Shown here: in pieces, positions 45,212 through 56,286 of the stretch
Position numbering within the stretch: the stretch's first letter is position 1
Layout: every line of letters begins with the position of its first letter
Source: Ornithinibacillus sp. 4-3
Lineage (GTDB): Bacteria; Bacillota; Bacilli; Bacillales; Amphibacillaceae
Assembly (NCBI RefSeq): GCF_040958695.1
Contig: NZ_CP162599.1
Location: 3,134,001 to 3,198,000, forward strand
Direction of reading: 5' to 3'
DNA length: 64,000 bases
Translations under genes and position numbers: made by a program
Notes under the pieces: model-generated
Database searches by the model: none
What the model saw: the letters and a program-made list of their open reading frames with translations, nothing else
Told to the model about the DNA's origin: nothing

Positions 45212-46465
45212 TTATAAACTCGATTTACCAATATCTTTACGGTAAAAGAACGCTTCATTAGCATCATATGCTTTTAAATATTCATATACTGCTTCTGACG
45301 CTTTTTGTAAATCCTTTCCTACAGAACCAACTAATAGCACGCGTCCTCCATTAGATACGATTCCTTCATTTGTTTGCTTTGTTCCTGCCTGAATAACAAA
45401 ACAATCTTCTGTATCTTCTACTGCGGGTAAAGGCACCTCTTTATTATAAGTTCCTGGATAACCAGTAGAAGCAAGCACAACACCTAAACATGCTTCCTTC
45501 TTCCACTTTAACTTCGGATCATTTCCAGCTACAACATCCTCCATTACTTGAATCAATTCATTTTCAAGTAATGGTAGAACAACCTGTGTTTCTGGATCAC
45601 CAAAACGAGTATTAAATTCGATTACTTTTGGACCTTCAGCAGTTTGCATTAATCCAGCATATAAAATACCCGTAAATGAACGGCCTTCAGCAACTAAGCC
45701 ATCAGCTGCTTTTTGTAGAATTTCTTTTGTTGCATAAGCAATAATATCATCTGTAATGTCAGGCACAGGAGCAAAAGCACCCATTCCACCAGTATTTGGT
45801 CCTTCATCATTATCATAGGCACGTTTATGATCTCGAGCTGGAGTCATTGGATATACTTGATGGCCATTAACAAATGCCATTAATGAAAATTCGACACCTG
45901 CAAGAAATTCTTCAATAACTATTGTCGAACCAGCACTCGCAAAACGTTTCTCCACCATCATGTCATCAATTGCTTGGATTGCGTCTTCCTTTGTTTCGGC
46001 AACAACTACTCCTTTACCTTCTGCTAGGCCATCTGCTTTAATTACAATTGGTGCACCTTGTTCTTCGATGTATCTCTTTGCCGCCTCTGCTTCTGTAAAT
46101 GTTTGATAGGAGGCAGTTGGAATTTGATATTTCTCCATAAAATCTTTAGCAAAGCTCTTACTTCCTTCAAGTAAAGCAGCTTCCTCTGTTGGTGCAAAAA
46201 TAGCTAGGCCTTCTTTCGTAAAACGATTAGCAATTCCAGCATTCAATGGATTTTCTGGTCCAACTACAGTGAAATCCACTGCATTTTCTTTAGCAAAGTT
46301 TATTAAAGCGTCGATGTCCATTTCATTAATTTCAACACATGTTGCATGTTGTTCCATGCCACCATTTCCAGGTGCTACAAAAATATTCTCAATGCGTTCG
46401 CTTTTTTTCAGTTGCATAACGATTGCATGCTCGCGGCCACCGCGGCCAACTACAAGTACATTCAT
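45212..46465 (-). CDS. purD: Phosphoribosylamine-glycine ligase
   Basis: A 417-residue ATP-grasp enzyme that makes GAR from phosphoribosylamine, glycine and ATP. It has NVLVVGRGGREHAIV at the N terminus, ADGLAEGKGVVVA (about 144-156), GPNTGGMGAFAPVP (about 214-227) and EFNTRFGDPETQ (about 274-285). Standard length and motifs. A terminator (46562-46594) and a 141-base gap separate it from purH, so its expression may be partly uncoupled from the operon. Confidence 0.97.
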   Translation of the reverse strand: MNVLVVGRGGREHAIVMQLKKSERIENIFVAPGNGGMEQHATCVEINEMDIDALINFAKENAVDFTVVGPENPLNAGIANRFTKEGLAIFAPTEEAALLEGSKSFAKDFMEKYQIPTASYQTFTEAEAAKRYIEEQGAPIVIKADGLAEGKGVVVAETKEDAIQAIDDMMVEKRFASAGSTIVIEEFLAGVEFSLMAFVNGHQVYPMTPARDHKRAYDNDEGPNTGGMGAFAPVPDITDDIIAYATKEILQKAADGLVAEGRSFTGILYAGLMQTAEGPKVIEFNTRFGDPETQVVLPLLENELIQVMEDVVAGNDPKLKWKKEACLGVVLASTGYPGTYNKEVPLPAVEDTEDCFVIQAGTKQTNEGIVSNGGRVLLVGSVGKDLQKASEAVYEYLKAYDANEAFFYRKDIGKSSL

Positions 46466-46606: not shown

Positions 46607-48139
46607 TCAATGTTTGAAATGGCGCATTCCTGTATGTACCATTGCAATCCCAGCTTCATTACAAGCGTCAATGGAAGCTTGATCTTGTTTGGATCCACCT
46701 GGTTGAATAATTGCTGTCACACCCGCTTTGGCAGCTGCTTCTACGGTATCTGGCATTGGGAAAAATGCATCAGATGCTAGCACGCTACCTTTTGCCTGTT
46801 CTCCCGCTTGATTAATTGCAATTTTTGCTGCACCTATACGATTCATCTGTCCAGCACCAATTCCAATGGTCTGATTACCTTTTGCTAAAACAATCGCATT
46901 TGATTTCACGTGTTTTACAGCTTTCCAAGCAAATAATAAATCTACTAATTCTTCTTCCGTTGGCTGACGTTTTGTCGAGCAGGTTAATTGTTCTTCTGTA
47001 ACCTCACCATCATCACTATGCTGGATAAGCACGCCACCTTTTACAGTAACGAATTTATAATAATCTTTATTATCTTTGTCCATTGTTAATTCAAGTAAGC
47101 GAATGTTCTTTTTCACAGTCAAAATATCCAATGCTTCTTGTGTGAAGCCTGGTGCAAGCACAATTTCGATAAATAGCTCACTAATTTGAGCAGCAGTTTC
47201 TTTGTCCACTTCACGGTTGCAAGCAATAATTCCACCAAAAATAGATATTGGATCTGCATCATAGGCACGCTTAAATGCTGTGCTAATCGATTCACCAGAA
47301 CCAATTCCACATGGGTTCATATGCTTAACCGCAACAACTGTTGGAGTATCATATTCTGTTACCATTTCTAAAGCTGCATTGGCATCTTGAATATTATTAT
47401 AGGATAGTTCTTTTCCGTGTAATTGCTTCGCTGTTGCTAAGCTCATACCCTTCTCTTGTGGATCTTTATAAAATGCAGCTTGCTGATGTGGGTTTTCACC
47501 ATAGCGTAAGGATTGGACCTTTTCATAGGTTACTGTATAAGCTTCTGGGAATTCTTCTTCTGTCACACCCATAAAATAACGCGCAATCATTGCATCATAA
47601 TTTGCTGTATGACGGAAAACCTTTGCAGCTAATTCCATTCTTTTCTTTTCATCTAGTTTATTAGCTTCTAAATCAGCAAGTACTTGATTATAATCAGTAG
47701 GATCTACAACAACTGTAACATCTGCAAAGTTCTTTGCGGATGCGCGCAACATTGTTGGGCCACCAATATCAATGTTTTCAATGATTTCTTCATGTGTTAC
47801 GTCTGTTTTAGCCAATGTTTCTTTAAACGGATATAAATTTACAACAACCATATCAATTGGATCAATTTCATTTGCTTTTAATTGTTCTACATGACTTGCT
47901 TCACTACGCTTTGCAAGTAGTCCACCATGAACTTTTGGATGTAATGTTTTTACACGCCCATCTAAAATTTCTGGGAAACCTGTTACTTCATCTACAGCAA
48001 TAGCTGGAACGCCAGCATCTTGAAGCAATTTTAATGTTCCTCCGGTAGAAATAATCTCAAAATTTAACTCTACTAATCCTTTAGCAAATTCTTCAATACC
48101 TGTTTTATTCGAAACACTGATTAAAGCTCTCTTCGTCAT
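46607..48139 (-). CDS. purH: Bifunctional AICAR formyltransferase / IMP cyclohydrolase
   Basis: A 510-residue enzyme for the last two steps to IMP. Residues 1-195 form the cyclohydrolase (RALISVSNKTG, FEIISTGGT, LDGRVKTLHPKVHGG). The rest is the transformylase (YGENPHQQAAFY about 216-227, VAVKHMNPCG with the catalytic Lys-His, SDAFFPMPDTVE and FRH-type MRHFKH terminus). It follows purN by 21 bases and is complete. Confidence 0.97.
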   Translation of the reverse strand: MTKRALISVSNKTGIEEFAKGLVELNFEIISTGGTLKLLQDAGVPAIAVDEVTGFPEILDGRVKTLHPKVHGGLLAKRSEASHVEQLKANEIDPIDMVVVNLYPFKETLAKTDVTHEEIIENIDIGGPTMLRASAKNFADVTVVVDPTDYNQVLADLEANKLDEKKRMELAAKVFRHTANYDAMIARYFMGVTEEEFPEAYTVTYEKVQSLRYGENPHQQAAFYKDPQEKGMSLATAKQLHGKELSYNNIQDANAALEMVTEYDTPTVVAVKHMNPCGIGSGESISTAFKRAYDADPISIFGGIIACNREVDKETAAQISELFIEIVLAPGFTQEALDILTVKKNIRLLELTMDKDNKDYYKFVTVKGGVLIQHSDDGEVTEEQLTCSTKRQPTEEELVDLLFAWKAVKHVKSNAIVLAKGNQTIGIGAGQMNRIGAAKIAINQAGEQAKGSVLASDAFFPMPDTVEAAAKAGVTAIIQPGGSKQDQASIDACNEAGIAMVHTGMRHFKH

Positions 48140-48160: not shown

Positions 48161-48724
48161 TTACTTCGTCGTTAATTGTCTAATAACACGCGGATATAAT
48201 TGATGCTCTACTTGATGGATGCGATTTTTTAACGTATCTAATGTATCGTCTTCTTTCACCAATACTTTTTCCTGAGCAATAATTGGCCCTGTATCAATGC
48301 CTTCATCTACATAATGTATCGTAACTCCTGTTTCTTTTACTCCAGCACGAAAAGCATCACCGATCGCATCTTTGCCTGGAAAATCAGGGAGTAAAGAAGG
48401 ATGGATATTAATAATTCTTCCTTCATATGCATTTAAAAATGTTGGCCCTACAATACGCATATAGCCAGCCAGGAAGACCCATTCGATATTTTCTGCTTGT
48501 AGCTTTTCGACAATTTCTTGCTCATAGACTGCCTTTGATTCATATGTCTTCGCATCAAAAACAAATGTCGACACATGAAAGGCTTCGGCTTTTTTGATTA
48601 CTGTAGCGCCTGGTTTGTCGCATACGAGTAATGTAATATCACAATTTAATTCACCAGCATTCATGATTGCTTCAAAATTACTACCTGTTCCAGAAGCAAA
48701 CACTGCGGCACGAGCTCTTGTCAT
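48161..48724 (-). CDS. purN: Phosphoribosylglycinamide formyltransferase
   Basis: A 187-residue 10-formyl-THF-dependent GAR transformylase. [12 protein letters not shown] (about 9-20) binds the ribonucleotide phosphate. [21 protein letters not shown] (about 106-126) contains the catalytic Asn-His pair, and the Asp lies in [13 protein letters not shown]. It overlaps purM by 4 bases. Confidence 0.96.
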
Positions 48725-49737
48725 GACGTAAACTGCACTCCTTCATTTGTGGTGATCTTTCCAATGATGGAGGCATCTTCCCCATTCTCTTTAAGGATTG
48801 CTAGAGCTTCCTCTGCGTCTTCTTCTTTTACAACTACTGCCATTCCAACACCCATGTTGAAAGTGCCATACATATCTTGTTTTGGAATTTCCCCTTTAGC
48901 TTGAACAAAGGAAATGATTTCTGGTACTTCCCATGTCCCTTCTGTAATTTCTACACCCAAGCCTTCTGGTAAAATTCTTGGTAAATTCTCATAAAATCCA
49001 CCACCAGTTATGTGGGAGATCCCGTTAATTGCTACCTTTTCTAAAAGCGCATGGATTGGCTTCACATAAATTTTCGTCGGTGTAAGTAAAAGCTCGCCAA
49101 GTGGTTTAGATAATCCATCATATTGCTTCGTTAAATCAAGATCCTCCACAATTTTGCGAACAAGGGAGTAACCATTTGAATGAATTCCACTAGATGGGAG
49201 TCCAATCACAACATCTCCTGCTGCTACAGCTTTCCCTGTAATTAATGCCGATTTCTCCGCAATTCCTACTGTAAATCCGGCTAAATCATACTCTTCTTCT
49301 GCGTACATTCCAGGCATTTCTGCAGTTTCTCCACCAACTAAAGCGGCTTCCGACTGCACACACCCTTCTGAAACACCTGCAACGATTTGTTCAATAACAG
49401 CGGGATTATTCTTTCCACAACCAATATAATCTAAGAAAAATAACGGTTTTGCCCCTTGTGCAACAATGTCATTTACACACATTGCTACTAAATCAATTCC
49501 AATTGTGTCATGCTTATCCAGTTCAAATGCTAATTTTAGCTTGGTTCCTACTCCGTCAGTACCTGAGACTAATACGGGCTCTTTGTAGTTTAAAGATGAA
49601 AGATCAAATAAACCTGCAAATGAACCTAATCCACCAATTACTTCTGGGCGCATTGTTTTAGCAACATGTTTTTTCATACGTTCAACAGCTTCATAGCCTG
49701 CTTCTACATCTACGCCTGCTTTTTTATACATCGACAT
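48721..49737 (-). CDS. purM: Phosphoribosylformylglycinamidine cyclo-ligase
   Basis: A 338-residue AIR synthetase that closes the imidazole ring of FGAM with ATP. Family landmarks are [11 protein letters not shown] (about 36-46), [14 protein letters not shown] (about 57-70), [14 protein letters not shown], and [15 protein letters not shown] (about 242-256). ATG 49737 follows AGGAGCGAG. An unusually long 314-base space separates it from purF. Confidence 0.96.
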
Positions 49738-50051: not shown

Positions 50052-51413
50052 TTATTCATGCATTTCTGCTAGTTTTTCGCCTTCTTCTGCGGGAAAGTCT
50101 CCTTCAAAGCAATGGCAAATTCCTTGATTAATTGTTTCTTCAGTAACGATCGCATTTTCTAATCCTTCTTGACTTAGGAATTCTAAGCTATCTGCACCGA
50201 TGATTTCTCGGATTTCTTCTATGGAGTGTTTAGCTGCAATTAATTCTTTTTTCGTCGTTACATCTACTCCACAATAGCAGCGATTCTCCATTGGTGGGGA
50301 TGCAATACGAACATGTACTTCTTTTGCTCCTGCTTCTTTTAATAACCCAACAATACGTCGACAAGTCGTTCCACGAACAATCGAATCATCAATCATCACA
50401 ACACGCTTCCCATCAACAATTCCACGAACAGGTGATAATTTAATTTTCACCCCTTGCTCCCTAAGTTCTTGTGATGGCTGGATAAATGTACGTCCAACAT
50501 AACGATTTTTAATAATTCCCATCTCATAAGGAATACCTGATTGCTCTGCATATCCAATAGCAGCAGAAATACTCGAGTCTGGAACCCCTGTTACTACATC
50601 CGCTTCAACTGGTGCTTCCTTCGCTAACTCAATTCCTGAACGTTTACGAGCTGCATGGACATTCACTGTATTTAAATCTGTATCTGGACGAGAATAATAA
50701 ATATATTCCATTGCACAAATTTTACGTGGTTCTCTTAAATTAAATCGAGTTGTTTTAACACCTTCGTCACTAATTGTCACAAGCTCTCCTGGTAAAATCT
50801 CACGAACAAAGTTAGCTCCAACAATGTTAAAGGCACAAGTTTCTGATGCTACTACATAAGCATCACCAAGTTTTCCTAAAGAGAGCGGACGAATACCACG
50901 AGGATCTAAAGCAATAAATAATTTATCATCTGTTAAGATCATAAATGCATAAGCGCCAACTACCTGCTTTAACGCATCAATAACTGAATCCTCATTAACA
51001 GCTCGTCCTTTTCTTTTAATTAAATGAGCAAGTACCTCAGGAGTGGAGTTTGTCTGTAAAATACTTCCCTCTGTCTCTAATTCCTTAATAAGCTCCTGTG
51101 TATTTTTAATATTTCCTTTATGTGCTACTGCCATGTTTCCAGAGAAAGAACGGAATAGAAGGGGTTGTACATTATCAACCTCTACCCCATTCTTACTCAT
51201 ATTCAACACATGACCAATTGCCGCATGACCTGGAAATTTTGAAAAATCAACTCGTTTAAATACATCATTAACTAACCCAGTATCTTTATGAAGTTTTAAT
51301 GTTTTTCCATCATTAACGATTAATCCAGCACCGTCTTGACCACGGTGTTGGAGTGCATGAAGGCCATAATAAGTTATTTCCGCCGCTTTTGGATGTCCCC
51401 AAATACCAAACAC
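50052..51413 (-). CDS. purF: Amidophosphoribosyltransferase with degenerate glutaminase domain
   Basis: PurF makes phosphoribosylamine from PRPP. The phosphoribosyltransferase half is intact (GVPDSSISAAIGYA, NRYVGRTFIQPSQ, RVVMIDDSIVRGTT). The N-terminal Ntn-glutaminase is not. The frame still reads NEEC just upstream (Cys codon 51417-51419), but an in-frame TAA at 51432-51434 and no start codon precede it, so translation would begin at GTG 51413 (SD GAGGA), after the nucleophilic Cys. Pocket residues are replaced: HVRYST by HVLNMS, AHNGN by AHKGN, SDTE by STPE. It would be expected to use ammonia only. The cluster-ligand motif CGQC reads QGIC. Confidence 0.9.
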   Translation of the reverse strand: MFGIWGHPKAAEITYYGLHALQHRGQDGAGLIVNDGKTLKLHKDTGLVNDVFKRVDFSKFPGHAAIGHVLNMSKNGVEVDNVQPLLFRSFSGNMAVAHKGNIKNTQELIKELETEGSILQTNSTPEVLAHLIKRKGRAVNEDSVIDALKQVVGAYAFMILTDDKLFIALDPRGIRPLSLGKLGDAYVVASETCAFNIVGANFVREILPGELVTISDEGVKTTRFNLREPRKICAMEYIYYSRPDTDLNTVNVHAARKRSGIELAKEAPVEADVVTGVPDSSISAAIGYAEQSGIPYEMGIIKNRYVGRTFIQPSQELREQGVKIKLSPVRGIVDGKRVVMIDDSIVRGTTCRRIVGLLKEAGAKEVHVRIASPPMENRCYCGVDVTTKKELIAAKHSIEEIREIIGADSLEFLSQEGLENAIVTEETINQGICHCFEGDFPAEEGEKLAEMHE

Positions 51414-51427
51414 AATACATTCCTCAT

Positions 51428-53635
51428 TTATTTATCTGATTTTAGTAAAGCTGCTGGGATAGCTTCTTCCCAAAGCTTTCTAAGTTCTTCTACTTGTTCC
51501 GAAACAACCAGCTCACTATCTACATTAATATTTAATGCTTGTTCTGCTGTTACACGTCCGATTTCTATTGCTCCTTCTACGAGGGTAGCAAATTTTTCTT
51601 TATTCTCTTCTTTTACTGTAACAATAAAACGTGATTGTGATTCACTAAATAATGCTGCTGTTGCGTCACCTGTTAATGTAACTTCTGCTCCAAGATCTTT
51701 TGTGACAATAGATTCTACTAAAGTAACAGCAACTCCACCTTCAGCAACATCTTGTGCTGATTCAACAACACCATGCTTAATTGCTTCTAATAATGCCTTT
51801 TGACGACTAAATTCTACATCTAGATCAATAGAAGGAGCTTGTCCCTCATATTTATTTAGTAATAAATTTTGTAGCTCACTTCCACCAAACTCGGCTTTCG
51901 TCTCACCAATTAAGAAAATTGCGTCTCCTGCTGCTTGGAAAGAGTTTGGCGTAATATGTTCTAGTGATTCATGTAATCCAACCATTCCAATAATTGGTGT
52001 TGGGAAGATAGGGACATTATTTGCTTGGTTATACATAGATACATTCCCACTAATTACAGGAAGTCCCATCACCTTACATGCTTCGCTGATACCATCGATA
52101 CTTTTATCCATTTGCCAGAAAATCTCTTCATTTGTCGGATTACCATAATTTAATCCATCTGTAACTCCTAATGGACGAGCTCCGGAACAAACGATGTTAC
52201 GTGCTGCTTCTGCAATAGCAATCTTTCCACCAGTTTCTGGATCTAAATAAATATAACGAGAATTACAATCTGCAGTAATTGCAATTGCTTTATCTTGATC
52301 ACCAATTTGTACTACTGCAGCTCCTGCACCTGGTCCAGCAATGGTATTCCCTCTTGCTTCCGAATCAAATTGCTCATAAATCCATTTCTTGCTAGCAATC
52401 GTTGGCTGTTGCAATAATTGCTTTAATGTTTCACCATAATTATCAACTTGAGGTGCATAAGGAGCCATTTCTTGGTAAGGCTTGAAATAAGATGCCTCTT
52501 TTGTCGGTAAATAATAAACTGGAGCTTTTTCATCTAAAGCATCAGCTGGAATATTAGCCATTACCTCCCCTTGATGCTTAATGCGAAATACTTGCTCTTC
52601 AATTACTTCTCCTACAACACAAGCAAATACATCATGCTTCTTAAAAATATCTAAAATTTCTTGTTCTTGTCCTTTTTTCACTACAAGTAACATACGCTCT
52701 TGTGTTTCAGATAACATCATTTCATATGCTGTCATATCTTCTTCTGCTTGAGGAACGAAGTCTAAGTTTAATTCCATTCCTGTGCCTGCCTTGCTTGCCA
52801 TTTCACTACCTGAAGATGTTAAGCCAGCTGCACCCATATCCTGCATCCCAACTAATGCGTCAGAATGAATAGTTTCTAAGCATGCTTCAATTAAACGTTT
52901 CTCTAAAATTGGATCTCCTGCTGCCGGTTTTGCATCTTCATTATCCTTATCATCCGAAGAATGTGTAGCTCCATGAATTCCGTCACGTCCAGTAGCTGCA
53001 CCTGCATAAATTACTGTATTTCCTACACCAGCTGCAATTCCTTTTTGGATATCATCATGATTTAATAAACCAACAACCATTGCATTTACAAGTGGTGTTC
53101 CTTCATAACAATTATCAAATTGAACTTCTCCACCAACAGATGGTACGCCTACTTGATTACCATAATCAGCCATTCCACGAACTACTTCTTTAAATAGATA
53201 ATTCGTACGTTCTGAACCTAAATTACCAAATCGTAGCGAATTCAATGCTGCTATCGGACGAGCTCCCATCGAAAAGACGTCACGTAGGATTCCACCAATA
53301 CCTGTTGCTGCACCTTCGTATGGATTAATACGAGATGGGCTATTGTGACTTTCCATTTTGAAAACAACTGCTTGGTTATCTCCAATATCAATAACACCTG
53401 CTCCTTCACCAGGACCAACTAATACTTGTGGTGCTTCGTTAGGGAATTTTCTTAATAATGGTTTAGATGATTTATAGCTACAATGTTCTGACCACATAAC
53501 GGAGAAAATTCCTGTTTCAGTGTAGTTTGGGTGACGGCCCATTACCTCTTTAGCTAATGCATATTCCTCATCTGTTAATCCCATTTCTTTGTACAACTTT
53601 TCGCTTTCGATTTGTTCTGGTTTCACGTTTTTCAC
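51428..53635 (-). CDS. purL: FGAM synthase large subunit (small-type PurL)
   Basis: A 735-residue synthetase subunit. In Bacillus it needs PurS and the glutaminase PurQ to convert FGAR to [26 protein letters not shown] (catalytic His), [24 protein letters not shown] and [15 protein letters not shown] are normal. GTG 53635 has AGAAGGGAG at nine bases; a frame from ATG 53656 would put the SD inside the gene. The genes for PurS and PurQ, normally directly upstream, are absent. The stop overlaps the ghost N terminus of purF. Confidence 0.95.
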
Positions 53636-53731
53636 GCTGGATTTCTCCCTTCTCATTTTCCAAAAATTAAAATAGGTTCATGCTAGTGCATCTATATTAA
53701 TGAAGCTTTATTGCAAATGTTTTTATTCTAC

Positions 53732-54865
53732 TTAAGCTTGATCATTTTCCTCATATGCTGCTACTTGCTTAGCTACTTTTTCAGCAGTGTCGGCGATAAA
53801 TGTAATATGTCCCATCTTACGCTTTTCTTTTGCCTCTGCTTTCCCGTAAAGATGTACATGTCCATTTTCGGATGTTTGCATATGATTAAGTACATCCTCC
53901 ATATGCTCTCCTAGAATATTTACCATGACAGATGGTTGCAATAATTCAATTGGTGTTAGTGGTAAGCCACAAATTGCACGGATATGCTGTCCAAATTGAG
54001 AAATATTACATCCTTCTATTGTATAATGCCCTGAATTATGTGGTCGTGGAGCCATTTCATTTAAATAAATATCATCCTTATAAACGAACATTTCAATGGC
54101 AAATGTCCCAACAATATTCATTTTTTCTCCAAGTAGCTTTGCTGCTTCCATTGCTTTTTCTTGTACAACTGTACTGATAGCTGCTGGAACTGTTGTTTTA
54201 TATAAAATATGATCTCGATGTTCATTTTCAGCTATTGGAAAATATGCTATTTCACCTGTTTGTGAACGAGAAAATACAACTGATACTTCTTTATCAAATC
54301 TAATCCATTGCTCGATAATACATGGATGATGAGCGTCAGCAAATTTAATTGCATCTTCTATATCTGCTACGGATTCAATTTTCAACTGACCTTTTCCGTC
54401 ATATCCGCCACGACAAGTTTTAATCACTGCTGGAAGATTAAATTCTGTTAATGCTTGTGCACATTCTCCCCCATTATGAACAATAGCAAATTGAGGGATT
54501 GGCAAATTCAAATCTTTCATAATTGTTTTTTCTTTTTCACGATTTTGTGTGATTTCTAGTGCATAAGCACCTTGAGGCAGCTTTCCTTTTTCTTCTATAT
54601 ACGTTGCTGCTGTTAAATCCACGTTTTCAAATTCATATGTAACTACATCACTAATTTCTGTTAGTTCCTTAATTGCGTCCATATCATCGTATGCTGCGAC
54701 AACATGATGATCTGCTATTTGAGCAGTGGGACAATCTGGCGTTGGATCTAGCACAGCAATTTTGTAACCCATATACCTTGCAGCAATTGCCATCATTCGG
54801 CCAAGCTGTCCTCCACCAATAATTCCAATCGTTTGACCAGGAAGTGTTACTTTAATATTCGGCAA
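53732..54865 (-). CDS. purK: N5-carboxyaminoimidazole ribonucleotide synthetase
   Basis: A 377-residue ATP-grasp enzyme that carboxylates AIR with bicarbonate. [15 protein letters not shown] at the N terminus, [21 protein letters not shown] (about 149-160) and [17 protein letters not shown] (about 267-283) are the expected motifs. It overlaps purE by 14 bases. In related genomes purB follows at once; here the next gene is purL after about 97 bases. Confidence 0.96.
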
Positions 54866-55343
54866 GGTTGTCCCTCATTTCTTCTACTTTAGTTTGCATA
54901 TTTCTTCGATATTCTTGAAGATTTTCTGCAATTCCTGTATCGAAAGCTCCAAGAATTTGTGCTGCAAATAATCCAGCATTCGTTGCTCCAGCTTTACCGA
55001 TTGCCATGGTTGCAGTCGGGACCCCACCAGGCATCTGTACAATAGATAATAAAGAATCAAGTCCATTTAATGCTCGGCTTTGTACAGGAACGCCAATAAC
55101 AGGCAAAGTTGTCTGTGATGCCACCATGCCTGGTAAGTGTGCTGCTCCACCTGCGCCTGCGATAATTACTTTTAATCCTCTTTCGCGAGCAGACTTTGCA
55201 TATTGAAACATTTCATCTGGTGTACGATGTGCAGAAATAACATCTTTTTCATAAGTAATTCCTAATTCGTCAAGAACGTCACATGCGTGCTTCATCGTCT
55301 CCCAATCAGAAATACTTCCCATAATAATGCCAACCGCTGTCAT
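54852..55343 (-). CDS. purE: N5-CAIR mutase
   Basis: A 163-residue class I PurE that converts N5-CAIR to [25 protein letters not shown] (about 9-29), SAHRTPDEM (about 39-47) and [14 protein letters not shown] (about 62-75) are conserved active-site segments. First gene of the operon; ATG 55343 follows AAGAGGG. The leader is about 340 bases and contains a MITE-like element. Confidence 0.97.
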
Positions 55344-55503
55344 ACAATCCCTCTTTCTTCAAAAATATTCAATTTTATTATCAAGTTTAAAATATAATCA
55401 TTTCTTTATCAGCTAGTCGAAAAAAGTAAAACTTTGGTTTATCTATTCCCTTTTGCCTCTCATTTTAATCCTGAAAAAGACAAACAAGGTTGTTATTAAA
55501 TCC

Positions 55504-55651
55504 GTGTTCAAAAAGGACGATAAAAAGGACCAAGAAGTTCAAGGCGGCGTAGCTTTGAGTAACGGAACGTATGTTTTTAGATACGTGAGTAACGGAAAAG
55601 CAAGCCAACGCAGAAATTCGCCATGTCATTTTTATTGGGCTTTTTGAACAT
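55504..55651. repeat. MITE-like inverted-repeat element, copy 2, in the pur leader
   Basis: 148 bases with the same GTGTTCAAAAAG ... CTTTTTGAACATCCTCTTT ends as the element at 43685-43958 and shared internal blocks. It lies between the pur promoter and purE, so it is transcribed as part of the 5' leader. Confidence 0.7.
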
Positions 55652-55689
55652 CCTCTTTAAGAAAACAACCTACGTTTTAACTGATATAT

Positions 55690-55719
55690 AGCATAACAAA
55701 ATTTGAAGAATACTGTCAA
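55690..55719 (-). promoter_or_regulatory. pur operon sigma-A promoter
   Basis: Minus strand TTGACA (55714-55719), 18-base spacer, TATGCT (55690-55695). It lies immediately downstream of the PurR boxes, as in B. subtilis. Confidence 0.8.
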
Positions 55720-55724
55720 TAAAA

Positions 55725-55767
55725 CATCGAACATTTTTATTCATTTTAATATTAATGTTCGGTTTTT
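55725..55767 (-). promoter_or_regulatory. PurR box pair
   Basis: Inverted CGAACAT boxes: AAAACCGAACATTAAT and ATGTTCG(A) about 17 bases apart, just upstream of the -35. They match the tandem PurBox layout bound by the Bacillus PurR repressor, whose DNA binding is relieved by PRPP. Confidence 0.85.
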
Positions 55768-55884
55768 GCTGTTTTTTGTTCAAATTTCTTCACACAAAAT
55801 TCATAAAACAGGAATTACTTGCTTAAAACTATAACTAAATTCGTACATAAAATCTGTTTACATAAAAGCACAAAGTTCAACCGT

Positions 55885-56286
55885 TTATTTACGAATCATT
55901 TTAAAAGTTGCCGTACTATGTGCAAGCAATTTATTAGTCTCATCATATAATTTGCCTTCTACCAACGCAGTCGAGCGAGTTCGATGCACAATATTCGCTT
56001 CTGCATAAACCTTGCCATTCGTTACTGAGCTTAAAAATTGAACATTCATCTGCAAAGTTACTGATCCATCCATACCGATTGTTCTTGAGGTTAATCCCAT
56101 CGTTGAATCAAGTATGGTCGCATAGATACCACCATGAAGCGTTCCATTAACATTTAGTAATGAAGGATGAATATTTAACTCTGTTTTTGCTGTTCCTTCT
56201 TTTATTTCAATAATATGTATCCCTAAAAACTGCCAAAAAGTACTTTCATTAAATTCTCTTTCTAACCTTTTTAATCGTTCTTCCAT
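55885..56286 (-). CDS. PaaI-like hotdog thioesterase
   Basis: A 133-residue hotdog-fold protein. HPSLLNVNGTLHGGIYATILDSTMGL (about 39-64) carries the N-G-x-x-H-G-G active-site pattern of the PaaI/COG2050 acyl-CoA thioesterases. ATG 56286 is behind AAGGAAG, right after the stop of the PLP-enzyme gene; the longer frame overlapping that gene lacks an SD. Co-transcription with D-amino-acid genes suggests the removal of an acyl-CoA by-product, but this is inference. Confidence 0.82.
   Translation of the reverse strand: MEERLKRLEREFNESTFWQFLGIHIIEIKEGTAKTELNIHPSLLNVNGTLHGGIYATILDSTMGLTSRTIGMDGSVTLQMNVQFLSSVTNGKVYAEANIVHRTRSTALVEGKLYDETNKLLAHSTATFKMIRK

Follow-up and report, generated by a model that had tools for sequence, protein, structure and literature searches.

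Can a PurF whose translation begins beyond its own catalytic cysteine still serve purine synthesis, and if so, what feeds it? The question is raised by the purine operon in a 64,000-nucleotide stretch of the Ornithinibacillus sp. 4-3 genome (contig NZ_CP162599.1, positions 3,134,001 to 3,198,000; hereafter the window, in which positions are counted from its first letter). The genome is a single contig of 3.69 Mb. Specifically, the gene purF2 (50052..51413, minus strand; open reading frame call, alignments, and TIGR01134) encodes PurF2, a PurF of 453 amino acids without the N-terminal nucleophile Cys1, and its GTG start corresponds to residue 3 of mature canonical PurF. We consider it probable that PurF2 is a working, ammonia-driven enzyme in an ammonia-type purine set, that a glutamine-type set was gained later, and that both have been kept. 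PurF2 would then be a phosphoribosyl-pyrophosphate aminotransferase fed by free ammonia and not by glutamine. Its translation would start at old codon 3, with the former Asn-Glu-Glu (NEE) codons as the ribosome site, and the Cys nucleophile would not be made. The N-terminal nucleophile (Ntn) glutaminase domain would be retained as a fold, with a drifting glutamine pocket and a maintained phosphoribosyltransferase domain.

Reading the frame upstream of the GTG (51411-51413) revealed an untranslated remnant, TAA-ATA-AAT-GAG-GAA-TGT-ATT (stop-INEECI; 51414..51434, minus strand), with the TAA at 51432-51434 and the Cys codon at 51417-51419. The four codons that separate them include no ATG, GTG, or TTG (there is one ATA, and an ATT follows the Cys), and the old NEE-Cys, although still encoded, is unreachable from any of these three starts. 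An initial annotation, made from the sequence, had described NEEC as untranslated behind this stop, and the codons at 51411-51434 agree with it; the arrangement also recurs in relatives. Its further claim that the TAA removes Cys1 stands only in part: the TAA is present but is not the whole story, the start lying at codon 3 with a GAGG motif, as in many relatives. Residue 1 of PurF2 aligns to residue 3 of the solved B. subtilis PurF (1ao0, 1gph). Exposure of an N-terminal catalytic Cys by propeptide or Met removal, a PurF trait, is therefore absent from a protein that starts at residue 3 with a TAA upstream.

The old NEE codons themselves make a Shine-Dalgarno-like GAGG (51422..51425, minus strand) 8 nucleotides before the GTG. 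Such a motif lies 4-12 nucleotides upstream of codon 3 in 28/30 moved-start genes versus 24/74 canonical ones, with GAGG at exactly 8 nucleotides in 21 of these 28; codon 3 is already GTG in 20/74 canonical purF genes. This suggests that the start moved onto a ribosome-site-like motif already written in the coding sequence, and because GAG-GAA forms that motif, it would also explain the persistence of the untranslated NEEC remnant. The moved start may have had one origin or several; the tree needs three changes, and its starred branches force two.

The glutamine pocket of PurF2 lacks the conserved Arg, Asn, and Asp of PurF. Aligned to PurF1, a second PurF of the same genome, it has Leu70 (51204..51206) at canonical Arg72, Lys99 (51117..51119) at Asn101, and Thr124 (51042..51044) at Asp126, all on the minus strand. 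These substitutions had been called correctly in the initial annotation, which did not list a fourth, Tyr73 to Asn. PurF2 matches TIGR01134 over its full length with 464.7 bits (curated cut-off 350). The phosphoribosyl-pyrophosphate-binding loop and phosphoribosyltransferase motifs (VMIDDSIVRGTT, NRYVGRTFI, and VTGVPDS) are all present, and the earlier statement that they are intact extends to moved-start relatives: the VMIDDSIVRGTT loop has at most two conservative changes in 29/29 moved-start proteins, and NRY[VI]GRTFI is kept in 27 of 29. Asn101, in turn, is retained in 7/29 moved-start versus 27/27 canonical proteins, and the glutaminase domain is diverging faster relative to the phosphoribosyltransferase domain (slope 1.71 vs. 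1.43, from pairs that are not independent). Four C-terminal cysteine positions, which we take to be iron-sulfur ligands in B. subtilis PurF, are filled in PurF2 and in 25-26 of 26 other moved-start PurFs.

purF2 has neither the broken frame nor the unconstrained codons of a pseudogene. Its 453-amino-acid frame is open, and its codon-position differences from the gene at locus L012 are 0.24/0.14/0.56 in the Ntn domain and 0.19/0.12/0.54 in the phosphoribosyltransferase domain, like those of canonical pairs; these second-position (0.12-0.14) and third-position (0.54-0.56) values are averages over the whole branch and silent on the period after PurF1 was gained. An AlphaFold model built from 42 sequences (mean predicted local distance difference test score, pLDDT, 80), used in place of a discarded first model from 7 sequences (pLDDT 49.7), matched 1gph over the chain with a template modeling score of 0.90.

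The nearest named records for PurF2 come from Pseudogracilibacillus, Virgibacillus, and Oceanobacillus. We compared a panel of 12 genomes and a family set of 149 genomes at least 95% complete (G and L numbers are our handles for genomes and loci). An operon without purC, purS, and purQ, together with a PurF starting at codon 3, was found in G001 (same genus), two Pseudogracilibacillus, Ornithinibacillus gellani, Virgibacillus indicus, Virgibacillus sp. MSJ-26, and two Oceanobacillus. In the panel, 8/12 genomes had no PurQ over the cut-off, each with a single PurF over the cut-off. Across the family, PurQ was over the cut-off in 121/149 genomes and not in 28, of which 27 have a PurF over the cut-off; codon 3 (ATG or GTG) is the apparent start in 26 of these 27, with no canonical start ahead of the Cys position. 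The remaining PurQ-less genome, G102, has neither PurF nor PurQ over the cut-off and is possibly a purine auxotroph. Among the 26 moved-start PurFs, a Cys is still encoded upstream in 13 (five with an in-frame upstream TTG, eight with no start) and absent in 13, and 21/26 have no ATG, GTG, or TTG able to yield a Cys-bearing product. As a control, the Cys codon was kept, each time with an upstream start, in 68/68 loci with purQ and purS beside purF. Five loci fall outside that count (L037, L046, L063, L075, and L083; canonical PurF, no purQ at the locus, some cut by contig ends). PurS absence refers to the neighborhood of purF. In one of the 27, G059 (L318; G059:C3:173358-174682), the match to PurF is divided between two frames close to the C-terminal end, which could be a frameshift, an error, or decay.

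Profile searches of protein clusters pointed the same way. Among the best 120 of about 8000 scored candidates, picked by similarity to the query, 99 PurF clusters start exactly at residue 3, two more are without Cys1 by inspection, and 19 have Cys1; neither this 101/120 nor the 71/120 given below for CarA is a frequency. Aligning PurF from related genera, as the initial annotation had advised, thus gave a codon-3 start in nearly every PurQ-less genome and a relaxed Asn101.

The neighboring purL2 (51428..53656, minus strand) encodes a small-type PurL that shares 65% identity with its paralog PurL1 in this genome, with ESHNSPS replacing ESHNHPS (Ser at 53339-53341). PurL is small in 10/10 PurQ-less loci, its frames measuring 689-761 amino acids between stop codons (a contig end truncates the shortest), which rules out a fused glutaminase in a large PurL. 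The His-to-Ser change is found in 10/10 of these loci. PurC was found in 12/12 panel genomes; the PurQ-less ones carry a divergent type below the TIGR00081 cut-off, and both types occur in the window genome. Divergent PurC genes that go with the ammonia-type operon lie at L220 (2837-3520) and L221 (3491-4186). The operons of L011, L012, L013, and L017 include purB. The ammonia-type set would comprise purEK-L2-F2-MNHD in an operon without purS and purQ, plus a divergent purC elsewhere, and it would have spread or arisen repeatedly in the family alongside other losses of glutamine use, up to glutamine synthetase.

These other losses are visible in several enzymes. Glutamine synthetase (PF00120) had no match in 4/12 panel and 7/149 family genomes, and all seven of the latter are PurQ-less (Fisher 4e-6, uncorrected for kinship, three genera). 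Virgibacillus sp. MSJ-26 is one isolate without the synthetase. GlmS was over the cut-off in 6/12 panel genomes. In the four panel genomes without glutamine synthetase, the CarA Cys is replaced by Gly and the His by Asn or Gln; the eight CarA rows from the remaining panel genomes are intact. In E. coli CarA, Cys-269 and His-353 are essential for glutamine hydrolysis (PMC6245113). In the cluster search for CarA, the nucleophile position is Gly in 71 of the best 120 of about 8000 candidates, and 68 of these 71 also lack the His. G001, one of the four panel genomes without glutamine synthetase, has a GuaA that has lost both Cys and His, as has the second GuaA copy of the window genome; in G002 and G003 the GuaA His alone is lost; the PyrG Cys is lost in G001 and in the second copy of the window genome. 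Side observations include weak or atypical glutamine synthetase matches in G013, G014, and G112 (E 1e-14, 2.5e-38, and 1.8e-100; most family genomes reach ~1e-130 or better). No CarA-length match was found among the class I glutamine amidotransferase matches of G004, G009, and G010, and no usual GuaA-length match in G009 and G010 (in the latter a 695-amino-acid frame); the genome of G010, at 2.0 Mb, may be incomplete.

Given the loss of PurQ, and of glutamine synthetase in some relatives, the simplest donor for PurF2-like enzymes is free ammonia. This would be consistent with E. coli PurF, which after losing its Cys uses ammonia and not glutamine (PMC3261824). From the gene structure, the pattern of co-loss, and the sequence constraint, all of which can be read directly in these genomes, we infer ammonia-dependent catalysis, the order of events, and a present activity of purF2 in the window genome. 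In extreme members of the lineage, carbamoyl phosphate, GMP, and CTP synthesis would also run on free ammonia, with decayed glutaminase domains in PurF, CarA, GuaA, and PyrG; such members would be without PurQ and PurS or GlmS, and finally without glutamine synthetase. Ammonia-rich habitats would fit such a metabolism.

Searching the whole window genome with TIGR01134, a step the initial annotation had suggested, recovered a second, canonical purF (PurF1; G000:C1:1758751) with 538 bits versus 468.6 for purF2. It lies in a purA-(aminotransferase)-purB-purC-purS-purQ-purL-purF cluster and has a normal MLAEIKSINEEC start; purQ and purC of this cluster were confirmed by family search, and the other genes were named by recognition. 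PurF1 shares 63% identity with PurF2, close to the value for the two PurLs. With this intact glutamine-type purF in a purBCSQLF cluster, purF2 is not the only PurF of the cell, which changes the picture for the cell and not for the lineage. The proposal that such a PurF uses ammonia and retains the dead domain for its fold is well supported for the lineage (PurQ gone genome-wide, PurS gone from the operon, GlmS and glutamine synthetase partly gone, Asn101 relaxed) and complicated in the window genome by its second purF. Free ammonia and an external donor, which the initial annotation had offered side by side, are inseparable in a genome that has PurQ and GlnA.

Where could the glutamine-type genes have come from? 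PurF1 is placed in a starred tree group of nine family rows (four canonical and five moved-start), and so came from within the family. A different affinity is evident for pyrG1 and glnA, which lie with glmS within ~5.2 kb (L006 1849-7058; G000:C1 about 1653849-1659058). The window genome's GlnA shares 55-62% identity with those of the panel, of which three compared pairs share 77-84%. PyrG1 shares no more than 60% identity with any panel PyrG; among the matches listed, its named ones belong to Clostridiales, Oscillospiraceae, and other Eubacteriales (70-72%), and its unnamed ones reach 74%, with one near-copy at 95%. On these comparisons the affinity of both genes is foreign, and the glnA-pyrG1-glmS block looks acquired, with the nearest relatives of pyrG1 in Clostridia and with glnA distant from the glnA genes of the family. 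A foreign GlmS was also considered and is unsupported (69-71% to the panel vs. 72-81% for panel pairs). CarA is normal in the window genome and dead in G001 of the same genus. The PyrG and GuaA trees were mostly unresolved and served only for the distance of PyrG1; the GuaA tree places G000_2 with G001 at weak support (78/75). The window genome thus seems to have regained glutamine use after loss, an order that we infer. Its lateral regain would consist of the glnA-pyrG-glmS block with its Clostridia-like pyrG and of purBCSQLF, among others, with both sets retained. On balance, we lean toward the broader view that the lineage largely abandoned glutamine as a nitrogen currency and that this organism took it back laterally and now holds both economies.

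Several observations weigh against this interpretation and need to be set beside it. PyrG triads are kept in G002, G003, and G007, which have no glutamine synthetase, and the GuaA triad in G007, so glutamine use was not lost across the board; GatA is over the cut-off in 12/12 panel genomes with its motif intact in 11/11 read, so Gln-tRNA amidation remains. G156 (L295) is PurQ-less and yet has a canonical Cys-bearing PurF start, the sole exception among the 27, and the glutamine pocket of G085 (L293) is unchanged. The PurL His-to-Ser change is weakened as a mark of PurQ loss by a Ser in the PurQ-bearing L029 and L039. purB was not seen at loci L014, L015, L019, and L020, where, with no genome-wide purB search, a complete pathway is unproven. 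The possibility that purF2 is redundant in a genome that also encodes PurF1, GlnA, and PurQ leads to the view that it is a relic, a former ammonia-type PurF held in place by the needed operon genes E, K, M, N, H, and D. Besides PurF1 itself, this is favored by a glutamine pocket more decayed than in the 26 other moved-start PurFs compared (25 of these 26, all of the PurQ-less set, retain Asp126) and by a C-terminal CxxC shortened to CHC, with one residue less between the last two cysteines. The whole-branch nature of the codon averages is a reservation about our own view. However, the reading frame, phosphoribosyltransferase motifs, and codon-position constraint of purF2 are intact, its end branch (0.34) is no longer than that of the sole PurF of G001 (0.49), a repressor-type box stands upstream of the operon, and purL2 has been retained too. 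A relic is thus unlikely in our estimation; of the two roles that PurF2 may have next to PurF1, an active branch using ammonia or a relic, a retained, constrained enzyme is favored.

It is also conceivable that a glutaminase supplies ammonia to PurF2 and PurL2 in trans, through PurQ and PurS of the second cluster, through mixed oligomers of PurF1 and PurF2, or through some other partner. Genes for PurQ, PurS, and PurF1 are indeed present in the window genome, and PurL2 equals PurL1 in length, but relatives with the same PurF and PurL have no PurQ over the cut-off, and some have no glutamine synthetase to supply any glutaminase, which makes this quite improbable. An unusual start from which Cys1 is still made (ATA or ATT in the window, TTG in a few relatives) appears very improbable. 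In its favor, an in-frame ATA does lie between the TAA and the Cys, and the upstream TTG of five of the 26 relatives could in principle yield Cys1, a further point against our view. Nevertheless, the Cys column is without Cys in 13/26, a TGA separates the Cys codon from the ATG in L296, the GAGG of the window sits after the ATA with no such motif directly before the ATA, and the pocket residues are decaying. To a sequencing or assembly error we give practically no weight. No point in its favor was found; an error near 51420-51440, which the initial annotation had named as a possible undoing of its proposal, is ruled out by the same arrangement in independent genomes (26/27) and in 101 of the best 120 of about 8000 protein clusters, and the single-contig genome argues against misassembly. 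An ammonia-driven PurF2, kept beside a regained glutamine-type set, remains our preferred reading.

The operon itself runs on the minus strand as purE-purK-purL-purF-purM-purN-purH-purD, and purB, purC, purS, and purQ are missing between purK and purL. Besides purF2 and purL2, it holds purE (54852..55343), purK (53732..54865), purM (48721..49737), purN (48161..48724), purH (46607..48139), and purD (45212..46465), all on the minus strand and named by recognition and conserved gene order, without family search. Upstream of purE lies an inverted CGAACA...TGTTCG pair (55728..55761, no strand assigned; one match, none in 100 shuffles), which we take to be a purine-repressor-type (PurR-type) box. 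Similar pairs precede purA in the second cluster (L005) and purE in L011 and L012. A purine riboswitch was not detected in the window at the gathering score, nor at E<=1 within 55300-55900; the PurR-type box was found instead. Elsewhere, G001 has a purine riboswitch before purE (L011 18703-18802), and a PurR-type box directly precedes the PurC match at L180 (G007). Between the box and purE of the window, 55540-55670 consists of repeat-like halves with CCGTTACTCA twice, possibly a remnant of a small mobile element.

The accepted view is that amidotransferase-type reactions require glutamine in vivo. Should these enzymes truly work with ammonia, an entire pathway in free-living bacteria would break that rule, and a comparison of close relatives could test why glutaminase domains and ammonia tunnels exist. 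With both versions of PurF, PurL, PyrG, and GuaA, the window genome would permit this comparison within one cell, as a natural before-and-after experiment. The locus also suggests a route by which a nucleophile can be lost, the start codon moving to a ribosome site already within the coding sequence. Among the matches listed, named database entries are labelled plain amidophosphoribosyltransferase or glutamine-hydrolysing enzymes, and metabolic models of the group may therefore be wrong.

No report of a Cys1-less PurF in bacteria, or of its co-loss with PurQ and other enzymes, was found among the matches listed from open-licence PMC literature, most subscription papers lying outside it. A table of nitrogen genes of Bacilli gives one glnA in the row for Oceanobacillus iheyensis (PMC3412718). 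The closest parallel is crenarchaeal PurF', a PurF homologue without the N-terminal Cys whose gene lies close to purine genes and accompanies a canonical purF, and for which ammonia-dependent activity is proposed and was untested by the authors (PMC3261824). PurF2 resembles it in having no Cys1 and being encoded among purine genes. PurF' is archaeal and always stands beside a Cys-bearing PurF in the crenarchaea studied there, whereas PurF2 is bacterial. Canonical PurF co-occurs with it in the window genome, but the moved-start PurF is the only one over the cut-off in the PurQ-less relatives examined (one PurF each in G001-G005, G007, G009, and G010). The bacterial case is further tied to the codon-3 start, PurQ loss, partial loss of GlmS and glutamine synthetase, and other nucleophile losses. 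In the PurF tree, built without archaeal rows, the nearest rows to PurF2 are PurFs of the same bacterial family. With B. subtilis PurF (1gph, 1ao0), PurF2 shares fold, domains, 59% identity, phosphoribosyltransferase motifs, and C-terminal cysteines; it differs in having no propeptide, no Cys1, changed pocket residues, and last two cysteines one residue closer. Vertebrate carbamoyl phosphate synthetase I is ammonia-specific and has kept its glutaminase-type domain after loss of the Cys, but it is a separate enzyme in another kingdom, and here a CarA case (Cys to Gly) stands beside the PurF case. Single-domain NadE likewise carries out an amidotransferase-type reaction on free ammonia in vivo (PMC3376133); its fold and reaction are different, and in the lineage of PurF2 several amidotransferases change together.

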